Positions 377-58,670 of a stretch of DNA of 64,000 nt are shown here, one piece after another. Within the stretch, counting starts at the first letter, position 1, and every line of letters starts with the position of its first letter. The notes below the pieces were generated by a model. It saw nothing but the letters and a program-made list of their open reading frames with translations, ran no database searches and had not been told where the DNA came from. Both the position numbers and the translations under genes were made by a program. Source of the stretch: Paralichthys olivaceus (taxonomy: Eukaryota > Chordata > Actinopteri > Pleuronectiformes > Paralichthyidae); NCBI RefSeq assembly GCF_024713975.1, contig NC_091097.1:2571361-2635360 (forward strand). Reading direction: 5' to 3'.

Positions 377-3300
377 CGGGCCTATGCAACCAGTAGATTC
401 TTCTGCTCTGTGTATTTTAAGAGTCTCCATACAGCACATACATTTTCTGAGCACATTAAGCATTTGAATTTTAACGCATTTTGAATTTAATTTGATGGTG
501 TATAATATCCATACAATCTTAATTTTCGTGCCATGTACCACTGCACTTTGTAAAACTGTGCCATGACTACTGTTGGATCAGTTCCACAGATCTGCTGCCC
601 TGACCCGTATCATGGCACATTACTTAACTGCATGTTTAGTTGCGTGGTGCATTATCTGTATCATGGCTTCTTTTTTGAACTACAATAACACTGCAATCAA
701 ATCTTTGAACTCATTTTTTCATAGTAGTAGTTTTTATTTGTCATTGGTGGAACTCAGGTGGAACCACTGTCACTGGCTCAGTGGCATTTAAGCACATCAG
801 TGAGACAGAGTTCTCACAGCGCCGGGCCTGAGACTGTTAAATGGAATGCAGCCATTGTGAGTGTTGTAGGTTCACCTCAGGGCTGTAGAGATGCGGAGGA
901 TCATAATGTACAGTGCATGTATATACTGTGGAAGAGTGCACGCACACAAGGCGGCCTGTGTTTTGTACCGATGTGAACTCAAGTGTAAGGGTACACTCAA
1001 CACTCGATGGTTTCACTGAGTCACAAACTCACCGACAGCGTTGAATGTTCCCCAACACTTGAAAAACTCTGGCTGACAGCGGGCGAAAAAACAGTCTGTC
1101 CTCCAGTGCTACAAGGAGTGGACAGCCATGACAGGACAGACCCGAGAGGACACTAAACAAGAAGAGACAAGAGCACTGCAGGTGCACGCACACATTTTAC
1201 CCATGATGCAGCAGACAGCAAGTCCTCTGATGCTTTAGAATTTGAGCATAGTTTGTGCAAATTCATTATATTTAGGATTGTTTGTTGTTATTACTGTGGA
1301 GAACATTTCCTGAAGCTTTTCAGAAAAATATGCAGTTTTTAATTTATTTGCAGTTCCTCCCATTTCTTCAGTTTCAAGAATCTACTATTTAAGGTCCAAT
1401 AGCTCAAGGATATATGTTGATTCCTCAAATTTGATATAATAATAATTCAATGTATTCATTTTTTGCTTAAATTCTGGATGATATTTATATATATATATTT
1501 ATAAACATTGGCCTGTAGTGCATCACGATGCAACACTTTGCACCTTTCAGTTGCTGGTCAGATTTAAGATCGGAGGCTTTTTTAAAAATCCCTTATACAT
1601 TTTCTACATAGACATACAATGCCGTGAATAGACATTTAGAGTAGACACTAGTGTACGTGTAGTTCTGAGACATCGCTCTCAAATAACAAGCTTCATGTTT
1701 TTCTTAGAGGTGTCTACCACTATGTCACTATTTTTTATTGACCACATCACTGCTTACACTGGTCACAAGGTCTTTCTGGATAATTAATGTCTGAACTACA
1801 GCAACTGCAATATGATTTCCTTTGTGTGTGTGTGCGTGTGTGTGTGTGTGTCTGACATTAATTGTGATAGTTATTGATCAAAGATACATTGATATTTTAT
1901 TACAAATACTATTACAAATGAACAGAGGACTGGCCACACACAAACACTCTTTACCTTGAATTTCTGCATTTGATTTGCCAAACACACACACAAAGAATGC
2001 ACATTACATTTTACGTGCACTAGTAAAGTTTCACCTTGCGAGAGTAAAATTTCTTCATTCCTGTTTTTATAATCTTAAAACTTCATGAGACTTGAACAAA
2101 TCATGAATCAGATGTTTTCTTCAATACCTGGATACATCGCCTTACCTGAGTACGCCCCTCTGATTGGCTGTGTGTGATCATACGCTAAAACCTAAAAACT
2201 TTTTATATAAAATCTTTATATAGAGTCTATGACTAAAACCTAAAAACCCGCTTAACGCTCATGGCGTCACTGCTGTCGGGTTGATTATGTGATGATGGAG
2301 GAGCAGGGGGGAGAGTGGGGGACTGGGAGGGTGGAGAGTCAAGGGTGAGTGGAGAGAATAAAGATGGCGGGGGACGGAGGGCGGGGTGTCTGGGTGAGGG
2401 GAAGGCTGATCGATTCCAGGCTTGGTATTTTCCAGACAGGCTGAATGGTAAAGGTCAAAGGTTAGCTGCTCTTGTTTCCTATGAAAGAGAGTGTGTGTCT
2501 GCGTGCGTGTGTGTGCATGTGTGTGTGTGTGTGTGTTAAAGCTCATGTGCAGAGGGGCAGCTATCCATGCATTGATTGCTTGGCATTGTATTAAATCGTA
2601 GTGTTTTCAAATCTCTAGTCACGCAAAGCAGTGCAGGTCATTGCATCCATCTCTGAATGTTGAGGGAAAACAAGTGTGTGTCTGTCTGTGTGTTTTGTTT
2701 TTATTTACTTAGCTAATAGGAGAGGTAGAAAACCTGAATGATGCAAATAACTTAATTTTAATATTTCTCAAGACACATTTTTATATGAAGTCGTTAATGA
2801 ACACTAGAGGGGAAACATATTTCAGAAATATGAGACATAATTGGTTCATAGCTGTGTTTTCCTCAGGTTTAATATTCTGTCGCTTATATATTTACTTGTG
2901 ATGAATTTCTTTAGAGAAACAAATAATCAGAGCCGCTCAGCATTATTGCTCTTTATTTATCTTGTTTTGTCATCGGAAGCTCTGCATCCTGAGCTCATTT
3001 CTGTGCTGTGTGATATTCACTTTGAACAGCATCTTACGTTAGATTCCTGGGAAACTCAGACATGGCTGAAAAACCTATTTAAACTTCTTTATACGTCGAG
3101 TTAAAATGCATACATTTTTCAGAGATTTGAACAGCAGAACACTTTGAGCCCAAGAGAGTGGAGGATGGTGATTGGGTGTCTTGCTCAAGGGCACATGGGG
3201 AAAAAAGCTAAAAATAGTCCTGAGTGCTGCTGCTGAGATAAAATGTGACACATTTGCCCTACGCTACAGTGCGTTTGCGTGTGTGTCTGTTTTGCTGTCG

Positions 3301-11278: not shown

Positions 11279-11977
11279 TCAAGTCTGTTCCTCTTTCGCT
11301 GGTTCTGTTTGTTCTTCACTAACCTTTTCCTCCTTTCTGTCAACTACATGAGCCTCTTTTACCTCGTCCTCCACTTTCAGCGCTAACCAGGACTCTTTGT
11401 GCAACCTCTCGTTCTTCTCCACCTCCTGAACGCTGGGTGGCGATGATACCTGCATGTGAGCTGGCAAGTTCTTGAACTCATCCTCGTTCACATCATAGTC
11501 CCGCATCTTTGAGTCCAGAATCCACCAGCGGCTGCCGAAGCCCACATCCAGAACCCTTTGATGGAACTCCAACCACGGCATGGACAGATTGGAGCACTGG
11601 GCTTCGTACAATGCGGAGTCCGTGTCGTAGTTGGCCCAGTAAACCAGAGAGAGAAGACCCAGGCTGGCATGTTGGAGACGGCCCTCGTTACGAAGCTTCA
11701 CTAGATTCTGGATGTGGCCATCCGACGTGGCGTTGCGGATCCACGGGGACAGCAGGCCCAGCTGGTTGGAGCGCTCCAGCAGGGCCGCCTCAAAGGACGA
11801 CTGGTCAGGGTTTGTGTAGACACAAGCCGAGGCCCCACCCATCAGAGTCAAGTACACAGTGGCTTTGGCCGGTCGCCCCCAGGCTCCAAGCACTATCTCC
11901 CTGCAGGCCTCTTTATAATCTGAGACCAGGCTGCGACACCACACGCCTACAGACAGCAGAGAAGGAGATACTTAGTG

Positions 11978-24952: not shown

Positions 24953-44107
<19,155 letters not shown>

Positions 44108-44359
44108 CTTCGATCTGGAAGTCGAGACAGGTCGGCGGCGTTCACATCCAACCACCGCGCACTGCTCTCTGCTGGAGGCAGAGCGGGCGTCCACACCGCA
44201 GCCGCCCAACAGCGCCCCCAGCAGGGTTCGAGGGGGTACTGGTGGGATACGTCATAGGGCCTCTCATTCCCCCCAAGTTAACACAGTAATCAAACCGAGT
44301 GGGTTTAAAAAAAAACAACATGTGTATAAAATAATAATAATACACTAGATTCATGATAT

Positions 44360-44540
44360 GTGATAAAGCATCTCTAGTCAGTCAATAACAAGTTGTTTTA
44401 AGTATTAACGGTACAACAGCAGTAATACAACATTACTAAGTATGAGATGTGTGAATCATTAATCCCAACAGTGTGTAACATCCCACCTTATGACAAACAG
44501 TATAATCAGTGCCAATTACTGAGAGGAAAACACCACCACA
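44360..44540. repeat. Copy A of an AT-rich duplicated segment in the carm1 5' flank
   Basis: It aligns by eye with 46,072-46,224 in the gng5-like intron, including CAGCAGTAATACAACAT, ATGTGTGAATC...AACA, AGTGTGT and AGAGGAAAACACCACCA against AGAGAAGAAAACACCAACA. The identity of the family is unknown. Confidence 0.6.
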
Positions 44541-45902: not shown

Positions 45903-49131
<3,229 letters not shown>

Positions 49132-49176
49132 GACTGAGCCAGAAGAGCAGGGAGAGTGATCGAGCCGTCAGCCGCA

Positions 49177-51764
49177 CTCATCCTCCCCTCAGTCCCTGGC
49201 TGCGGTAGCACGCGCACTCTGGTCTAAACCTTCAAAATAAAACACCCTCTCATCCTCCCCTCAGTCCCTGGCTGCGGTAGCACGCGCACTCTGGTCTAAA
49301 CCTTCAAAATAAAACACCCTCTCATCCTCCCCTCAGTCCCTGGCTGCGGTAGCACGCGCACTCTGGTCTAAACCTTCAAAATAAAACACCCTCTCATCCT
49401 CCCCTCAGTCCCTGGCTGCGGTAGCACGCGCACTCTGGTCTAAACCTTCAAAATAAAACACCCTCTCATCCTCCCCTCAGTCCCTGGCTGCGGTAGCACG
49501 CGCACTCTGGTCTAAACCTTCAAAATAAAACACCCTCTCATCCTCCCCTCAGTCCCTGGCTGCGGTAACACGCGCACTCTGGTCTAAACCTTCAAAATAA
49601 AACACCCTCTCATCCTCCCCCCAGTCCCTGGCTGCGGTAGCATGCGCACTCTGGTCTAAACCTTCAAAATAAAATATCCTCTCATCCTCCCCTCAGTCCC
49701 TGGCTGCGGTAGCACGCGCACTCTGGTCTAAACCTTCAAAATAAAACACCCTCTCATCCTCCCCTCAGTCCCTGGCTGCGGTAGCACGCGCACTCTGGTC
49801 TAAACCTTCAAAATAAAACACCCTCTCATCCTCCCCTCAGTCCCTGGCTGCGGTAGCACGCGCACTCTGGTCTAAACCTTCAAAATAAAACACCCTCTCA
49901 TCCTCCCCTCAGTCCCTGGCTGCGGTAGCACGCGCACTCTGGTCTAAACCTTCAAAATAAAACACCCTCTCATCCTCCCCTCAGTCCCTGGCTGCGGTAG
50001 CACGCGCACTCTGGTCTAAACCTTCAAAATAAAACACCCTCTCATCCTCCCCTCAGTCCCTGGCTGCGGTAACACGCGCACTCTGGTCTAAACCTTCAAA
50101 ATAAAACACCCTCTCATCCTCCCCTCAGTCCCTGGCTGCGGTAGCACGCGCACTCTGGTCTAAACCTTCAAAATAAAACACCCTCTCATCCTCCCCTCAG
50201 TCCCTGGCTGCGGTAACACGCGCACTCTGGTCTAAACCTTCAAAATAAAACATCCTCTCATCCTCCCCTCAGTCCCTGGCTGCGGTAGCACGCGCACTCT
50301 GGTCTAAACCTTCAAAATAAAACACCCTCTCATCCTCCCCTCAGTCCCTGGCTGCGGTAACACTCGCACTCTGGTCTAAACCTTCAAAATAAAACATCCT
50401 CTCATCCTCCCCTCAGTCCCTGGCTGCGGTAACACGCGCACTCTGGTCTAAACCTTCAAAATAAAACACCCTCTCATCCTCCCCTCAGTCCCTGGCTGCG
50501 GTAGCACGCGCACTCTGGTCTAAACCTTCAAAATAAAACACCCTCTCATCCTCCCCTCAGTCCCTGGCTGCGGTAACACGCGCACTCTGGTCTAAACTTT
50601 CAAAATAAAACACCCTCTCATCCTCCCCTCAGTCCCTGGCTGCGGTAGCACGCGCACTCTGGTCTAAACCTTCAAAATAAAACACCCTCTCATCCTCCCC
50701 TCAGTCCCTGGCTGCGGTAGCACGCGCACTCTGGTCTAAACCTTCAAAATAAAACACCCTCTCATCCTCCCCTCAGTCCCTGGCTGCGGTAGCACGCGCA
50801 CTCTGGTCTAAACCTTCAAAATAAAACACCCTCTCATCCTCCCCTCAGTCCCTGGCTGCGGTAACATGCGCACTCTGGTCTAAACCTTCAAAATAAAACA
50901 CCCTCTCATCCTCCCCTCAGTCCCTGGCTGCGGTAGCACGCGCACTCTGGTCTAAACCTTCAAAATAAAACACCCTCTCATCCTCCCCTCAGTCCCTGGC
51001 TGCGGTAACACGCGCACTCTGGTCTAAACCTTCAAAATAAAACATCCTCTCATCCTCCCCTCAGTCCCTGGCTGCGGTAACACGCGCACTCTGGTCTAAA
51101 CCTTCAAAATAAAACACCCTCTCATCCTCCCCTCAGTCCCTGGCTGCGGTAGCACGCGCACTCTGGTCTAAACCTTCAAAATAAAACACCCTCTCATCCT
51201 CCCCTCAGTCCCTGGCTGCGGTAGCACGCGCACTCTGGTCTAAACCTTCAAAATAAAACACCCTCTCATCCTCCCCTCAGTCCCTGGCTGCGGTAACATG
51301 CTCATTCTGGTCTAAACCTTCAAAATAAAACACCCTCTCATCCTCCCCTCAGTCCCTGGCTGCGGTAGCACGCGCACTCTGGTCTAAACCTTCAAAATAA
51401 AACATCCTCTCATCCTCCCCTCAGTCCCTGGCTGCGGTAGCACGCGCACTCTGGTCTAAACCTTCAAAATAAAACACCCTCTCATCCTCCCCTCAGTCCC
51501 TGGCTGCGGTAACATGCTCATTCTGGTCTAAACCTTCAAAATAAAACACCCTCTCATCCTCCCCTCAGTCCCTGGCTGCGGTAACACGCTCATTCTGGTC
51601 TAAACCTTCAAAATAAAACACCCTCTCATCCTCCCTTCAGTCCCTGGCTGCTAACACGCTCATTCTGGTCTAAACCTTCAAAATAAAACACCCTCTCATC
51701 CTCCCTTCAGTCCCTGGTTGCTAACACGCACACTGTGGTCTAAACCTTCAAATTAAAACACCCA
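49177..51764. repeat. 72-bp minisatellite, 36 units, between gng5-like and clpp
   Basis: Thirty-four 72-bp units are followed by two 70-bp units. Each unit contains CTCATCCTCCCCTCAGTCCC, CTGGCTGCGGTAGCACGCGC, ACTCTGGTCTAAACCTTCA and AAATAAAACACCCT. Most units are identical or differ at a few fixed sites: gtAgcac/gtAacac, cacGcgc/catGcgc/cactcgc, and acaCcct/acaTcct. Divergence is concentrated at the clpp-side end (units 30 and 33-36). Each standard unit brings three CpGs and, on the plus strand, one AATAAA. The array starts 45 bp upstream of the gng5-like ATG. Confidence 0.98.
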
Positions 51765-51856
51765 CTCATTGATGTTTAATGATGTTTAATTGATGGATGT
51801 TAATTACATAAAATTTAAGCAACACTTAAATGTACATTTTACTTTATACAAGTAGA

Positions 51857-51857
51857 A

Positions 51858-51921
<64 letters not shown>

Positions 51922-51927
51922 ATAGAT
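51857..51927. repeat. (GATA)n microsatellite
   Basis: Fifteen uninterrupted GATA units at 51861-51920 with degenerate units on both sides. Confidence 0.97.
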
Positions 51928-52084
51928 CAGTGTGGAGGTATTTCATGTTTTGTCTGTAGTTTTTGTTAACATTGGTCACCAGTTTCTTAAATTGTGTTGG
52001 ATTTGGCTGCAGCACTGTTTACCCCGGACACTTCACCCACCTACATAATGAGTGAAGTTTCATTTTTTTCAACTCTCCCTTTAA
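51926..52084. repeat. Second copy of the dispersed repeat seen at 48.1 kb
   Basis: Same order of strings as 48,095-48,277: GTGTGGAGGTATTTCATGTT, GGATTTGGCTGCAGCACTGT, TTCACCCACCTA and an end in CTCTCCCTTTAA. Confidence 0.6.
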
Positions 52085-52250
52085 TGGGGACATAGACAGT
52101 AGGTGCAGCTGTTCGATAGATGGCGCTACATACGTCAATCTGAAGCCATGCACCATGAAGAAGGTGAAGAAGAAGAAGACGGTTCAAAGGTCAAAGTGAG
52201 ATCGTTTCCGGAGGAGCTGGGGGTCACATACGGGGGGAGACGATTTCAAA
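52085..52250 (+). promoter_or_regulatory. clpp: clpp proximal promoter with a DR1-type nuclear-receptor motif
   Basis: The 166 bp before the clpp ATG contain GGTTCA-A-AGGTCA at 52181-52193, a direct repeat of hexamers spaced by one base, plus CRE-like TACGTCA near 52,131. No TATA box is evident. Binding is not shown; the motif alone is seen. Confidence 0.45.

Positions 52251-58670
<6,420 letters not shown>

Follow-up and report, generated by a model that had tools for sequence, protein, structure and literature searches.

The divergent genes gng5-like (minus strand) and clpp (plus strand) of Paralichthys olivaceus are separated by an interval that consists mostly of a single tandem array, raising the question of whether this repeat regulates either gene or simply holds them apart. 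The array lies in a 64,000-nucleotide stretch of contig NC_091097.1 (assembly GCF_024713975.1, positions 2,571,361 to 2,635,360 of the forward strand), the whole of which was analysed and is referred to here as the window; all coordinates are those of the window. The array is probably an ordinary single-locus minisatellite that has grown by slippage or unequal exchange and serves mainly as a 2.6 kb spacer. Its main parts are as follows:

49177–51764, no strand assigned: minisatellite of 36 head-to-tail units with 96 CpGs (repeat finding and unit cutting)
49177–49536, no strand assigned: units 1–5, adjoining gng5, all identical to the consensus (unit comparison)
51265–51764, no strand assigned: units 30–36, on the clpp side (unit comparison)
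49175–49181, plus strand: CACTCAT at the left array border, a 7-bp direct repeat with 51763–51769
51763–51769, plus strand: CACTCAT at the right array border, a 7-bp direct repeat with 49175–49181

The array is far beyond chance. Tandem Repeats Finder places it at 49177–51769 with a period of 72, 36.1 copies, 97% matches and a score of 4864, against 210 for the runner-up within the window. When the array is cut at the unit start, 34 of the 36 units are 72 bp long and two are 70 bp, with a mean pairwise identity of 97% among all 36. An earlier note on this DNA had described a 36-unit array lying 45 bp from the gng5-like ATG and occupying 2.6 of the 3.1 kb between the gng5-like and clpp start codons, its standard unit carrying GCACGCGC, GCTGCGG and three CpGs. 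This description holds for the array, its unit and both neighbouring genes: the array fills 2588 of 3119 bp, beginning 45 bp from the gng5 ATG and ending 486 bp from that of clpp. Minisatellites are defined in the accessible part of PMC2688266 as head-to-tail repeats with units of 6–99 nucleotides, and their arrays span about 0.5 kb to several kb according to the accessible part of PMC2820488; 36 copies of 72 or 70 bp over 2588 bp fall within both ranges. A blastn search of the rest of the window, with the array masked, found no second copy of the unit (best match 14 bp, E 0.08), and a dispersed family was rejected as a reading of the array for lack of such a copy. An exact 27-base unit pattern had no match in viral contigs or in bacterial and archaeal genomes, a result that says nothing about other fish.

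The flanking genes and the sequence around the array are laid out as follows:

49039–49131, minus strand: gng5-like coding exon 1, with its ATG at 49131, followed by GTTTGT (gene reconstruction)
45903–46028, minus strand: gng5-like coding exon 2, ending in CVLL and a stop (gene reconstruction)
51925–52084, plus strand: copy of a dispersed repeat in the gap from the array to clpp, with a relative at 48099–48277
52141–52840, no strand assigned: CpG-island-like stretch at the start of clpp, separate from the array (CpG scan)
52251–52262, plus strand: probable clpp coding exon 1 (MLLR), with its ATG at 52251, followed by GTGAGT, placed from the donor and the phase of exon 2
54057–54161, 55673–55747 and 55833–55931, plus strand: later clpp exons (domain, structure match and tblastn)
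about 56696–56890, 57000–57134 and 58434–58565, plus strand: later clpp exons (domain, structure match and tblastn)

The joined gng5-like protein has 72 residues and a G-gamma domain (Pfam E 7e-19), and its top structure-library match is G-gamma-2 (best 60 of 75 distinct sequences). We take the gene to be gng5 because its exon 2 is 72% identical to human GNG5, the only gamma subunit in that comparison. The plus-strand gene encodes a CLP_protease domain (E 2e-30), and its best structure match is human mitochondrial CLPP (E 1e-36). A tblastn search using a human sequence placed the further clpp exons, and one matching stretch extends beyond an exon end. A literature search found nothing on synteny of gng5 and clpp, and in another search gng5 was absent among the matches listed; neither result proves absence from print.

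The two start codons are 3119 bp apart and would be 531 bp apart if the array were removed. Bidirectional promoters typically have divergent starts within about 1 kb of each other, and the array may have separated a once compact divergent gng5/clpp pair. The dispersed repeats at 48099–48277 and 51925–52084, which share the same orientation and 77–80% identity in two pieces, bracket gng5 exon 1 and the array. Also present are an ATAG microsatellite at 51858–51927, between the array and clpp, and a second, perfect minisatellite with 5.8 copies of an 18-bp unit (100% matches) at 52416–52520, just within the inferred first intron of clpp. No inverted repeats around the array were reported in 47900–53100.

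Variation among the units is concentrated at one end. Twenty of the 36 units are identical and form the commonest type, units 1–5 beside gng5 among them. Seven units show at least three differences from the consensus: 7 (four), 17 (three), 30 (four), 33 (four), 34 (three), 35 (five) and 36 (eight). Five of these seven sit at the clpp end (30, 33, 34, 35 and 36), with units 7 and 17 as divergent exceptions in the interior and units 31 and 32 carrying one and no differences, respectively. G38T and C41T are common to units 30, 33, 34 and 35, and units 35 and 36 both lack two G, reducing them to 70 bp, and both carry C12T; the shared variants of the clpp-end units form a stepwise series. The further a unit lies from gng5, the more it differs from the consensus (Spearman rho 0.47, p 0.003, all 36 units), a trend that persists when the last two units are dropped (rho 0.36, p 0.03). 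The gradient is gone when the last seven are left out (rho 0.19, p 0.34), making it a property of the clpp-side end. Adjacent units resemble each other more than permuted ones do when all 36 are taken (p 0.002), but not when only the first 34 (p 0.42) or the first 29 (p 0.93) are. Edge decay may underlie the gradient and would suffice by itself to explain it.

The suggestion in the earlier note that the ATG-adjacent unit may be the original one is not supported by this map. Because units 1–5 are of the commonest type and the divergent units lie mostly on the clpp side, a recent or homogenised copy is the more likely reading of unit 1. A single CpG is present in each of units 35 and 36, compared with three in the standard unit; if the clpp-side units are older, expansion would have added the other two, although the change may have run the opposite way.

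The CACTCAT at both borders is what slippage at short direct repeats would be expected to leave, a mechanism put forward for the birth of minisatellites in the accessible part of PMC2820488. It is weak evidence for slippage, since five of its seven bases belong to the unit's own phase and only CA is extra. A 70–72 bp stretch upstream of gng5 would have been duplicated, probably when short direct repeats such as CACTCAT slipped or exchanged unequally, and the array would then have been enlarged and homogenised, with its most recent, identical units lying towards gng5 and its older and more divergent ones towards clpp. It would now be chiefly a 2.6 kb spacer in the divergent gene interval, and any effect on gng5 would be indirect, through length, nucleosome placement or methylation. 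The structure of the array, its borders, its variant map and the gene positions are direct observations, alongside which we infer the slippage origin, the direction of growth and the lack of a dedicated function. Swordtail fish, whose PRDM9 is partial, recombine more often close to transcription starts and CpG islands (PMC5519329, accessible part), and such recombination would be a plausible driver of array growth next to a promoter. Among five fish genomes, the share of tandem repeats is 1.7–5.0% in four and 20.6% in the other (PMC2688266, accessible part).

The earlier estimate of about 100 CpGs is close to the 96 counted, and the array is indeed CpG-bearing, but its observed/expected ratio is 0.67, compared with 0.39 for the remainder of the window and 0.69 for the clpp 5′ region (52050–52800). 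The window has eight CpG-island-like stretches, of which the array ranks first in length (2560 bp as merged) and fifth in observed/expected. The highest ratio, 0.92 with 66 CpG per kb, belongs to 42841–44380, a likely promoter island. CpG islands have a GC content of at least 0.5, an observed/expected ratio of at least 0.6 and a length of at least 200, with a stricter rule asking for GC of at least 0.55. The array, being one 72-bp unit repeated, passes the looser thresholds (GC 0.53, observed/expected 0.67) and fails the stricter one. With 28 C and 11 G, each unit is strongly strand-asymmetric, and its 3 CpGs compare with 28 × 11 / 72 = 4.3 expected from composition; the CpG total of the array reflects copy number. 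Transitions are found at 5 of the 214 bases in CpGs and at 28 of the 1186 remaining C or G bases, 14 of these 28 at one site, and the ratio of sites hit, CpG versus other, is 1.6 (interval 0.16–8.3, from few events). Methylation-driven decay of the array was set aside as an explanation, these few events showing no clear excess of CpG transitions and no sign of fast CpG decay. The same lack of a clear excess could fit an unmethylated, functional CpG-rich stretch.

Sequence motifs were compared with 400 dinucleotide shuffles, using 26 motif rows that amount to 25 distinct patterns. The lowest nominal p values are those of CACGCG (0.0075), AATAAA (0.035), a MEF2-like pattern (0.035) and a Jeffreys-core-like pattern (0.0675). 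None of the 25 survives multiple-testing correction (0.0075 × 25, or about 0.19, for CACGCG), and motif-driven function was rejected accordingly; none of the NRF1, XRE, HRE, Sp1, NFY, ETS, CREB and TATA patterns is notable in the array against the shuffles. CACGCG occurs 28 times in the array, compared with 5 times across both strands elsewhere in the window, a frequency that, at its nominal p of 0.0075, leaves room for a predicted binding site per unit. A coding array was rejected because a stop occurs in every unit in each of the six consensus frames, and structured RNA or DNA was rejected on fold z-scores of −0.71 and 0.09 and the lack of an Rfam match in the array. On the plus strand (clpp sense), all 36 units contain an acceptor-like 3′-splice site, CTCATCCTCCCCTCAG, scoring 9.4–12.3, and the array has 35 AATAAA hexamers, a curiosity given that no plus-strand transcript is known to cross it.

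In the gng5 sense, all 36 units contain GGGAGGATGAG, an ATG with A at −3, and the copy nearest to gng5 is the following:

49179–49181, minus strand: last upstream ATG in the gng5 sense, in the context GGGAGGATGA, opening a 27-codon frame

In the inner units examined, the upstream ATG opens a nine-codon frame, MRGCFILKV; the 27-codon frame of the nearest one (49181) overlaps the gng5 ATG in a different frame. An unspliced 5′UTR would thus bring 36 upstream ATGs, the last of them overlapping the gng5 start out of frame, and on these grounds the array is unlikely to lie in the 5′UTR of an efficiently translated mature gng5 mRNA. Of the two roles that the earlier note had proposed for the unit, promoter or 5′UTR piece, the promoter-proximal position stands and the 5′UTR becomes unlikely. 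Since an mRNA with even the first unit would carry the overlapping frame, transcription would start within the gap of about 45 bp between the array and the ATG, or the 5′UTR would be spliced at CAG|TCATG.

Splicing at that site would place the array in a gng5 5′UTR intron, with transcription starting near the CpG-rich region of clpp from a bidirectional promoter shared with that gene, an arrangement that we regard as unlikely. It would remove all upstream ATGs of the array, and a 3′-splice-like site, CCTGCTCTTCTGGCTCAG|T (score 8.6), does end two bases before the gng5 ATG; sites of this type scoring at least 8 occur about 1.7 times per kb per strand. The CpG-rich stretch at 52141–52840 adjoins clpp, minus-strand donor-like sites occur at 52043 (8.7) and 52418 (9.3), and inside the array no acceptor-like or donor-like site in the gng5 sense reaches the respective thresholds of 6 and 5. 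However, the splice scoring matrix was built from general consensus frequencies, one donor-like site lies in the dispersed repeat and the other inside the first intron of clpp, and donor-like sites scoring at least 8 have a frequency of 0.85 per kb per strand, so that one or two here are near chance. An assembly artefact affecting copy number and unit order in part is less probable still: short reads could not order 20 identical units out of 36, but the variant units are scattered through the array, as read-through assembly would give, and the array itself, with its unique flanks, is not in doubt.

A direct regulatory role is likewise unlikely. The array would then be a copy-number-dependent cis-regulator, each unit contributing a binding site or CpG cluster, and extra units would alter the transcription or promoter methylation of gng5 and possibly of clpp. 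Its start 45 bp from the gng5 ATG, its surplus of CACGCG and its CpG ratio relative to the rest of the window are all consistent with this, and human minisatellites near genes can be associated with expression (PMC8024321 and PMC8096271, accessible parts). Human associations of this kind involve 163 of 10,264 genotyped VNTRs in the accessible part of PMC8024321, and 187 genes, including CSTB with a VNTR upstream, in that of PMC8096271. The first figure, only 1.6% of tested VNTRs, also implies a low prior; the corrected p of CACGCG is about 0.19, no other tested pattern survives correction, and the CpGs per unit are fewer than base composition predicts. A copy-number effect on expression is thus possible and reasonable, a known kind of hypothesis with a low prior, no sequence feature that singles it out and no support specific to this locus. 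In its strongest version, which is highly improbable, each unit would be a portable gng5 promoter copy and the array a length-variable, germline-unmethylated promoter domain maintained by recombination, making gng5 dosage an inherited length trait. This version specifies a 2.6 kb CpG-rich domain, about 30 CACGCG sites and one decoy ATG per unit, and recombination aimed at promoters and CpG islands, in a fish without full PRDM9, would keep the array expanding and its gng5 side homogenised.

Were a regulatory reading true, the locus would serve as a natural series of copy numbers in front of a widely used G-protein gamma gene, and as a test of whether promoter minisatellites in fish without full PRDM9 (PMC5519329, accessible part) are fed by recombination directed to promoters. 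An ordinary minisatellite, the preferred reading, would be a useful polymorphic marker and a clear case of such a repeat occupying most of a divergent gene interval. The array is real, well described and ordinary for now.

In its head-to-tail units of tens of bases, few-kb length, strand-asymmetric bases, patchy variant map and short direct repeat at the borders, the array resembles known minisatellites and VNTRs, with nothing distinctive found in it. Guppy minisatellites were reportedly shown by Taylor and Breden in 2000 to be born by slippage at non-contiguous repeats. Human expression-associated upstream VNTRs such as that of CSTB (PMC8096271, accessible part) are likened to the array by description, as CpG-bearing tandem arrays directly upstream of a gene, although the present array is known from sequence alone. 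The 77-nucleotide GC-rich minisatellite of Nothobranchius furzeri is similar by description in unit length and conserved units, but it is centromeric and high-copy in the accessible part of PMC2688266, whereas the present array occurs once in the window, beside genes.

Elsewhere in the window, a mir-181 microRNA precursor at 980–1060 (minus strand, 66.2 bits) is the only Rfam match, and a Tim29 gene lies at 11279–11971 (minus strand, Pfam E 2.8e-65). Open frames at 25861–26519 (plus strand) give an HTH_38 match with an E of 0.0004, below Pfam's cut-off, and resemble a remnant of a Tc1-type transposase.
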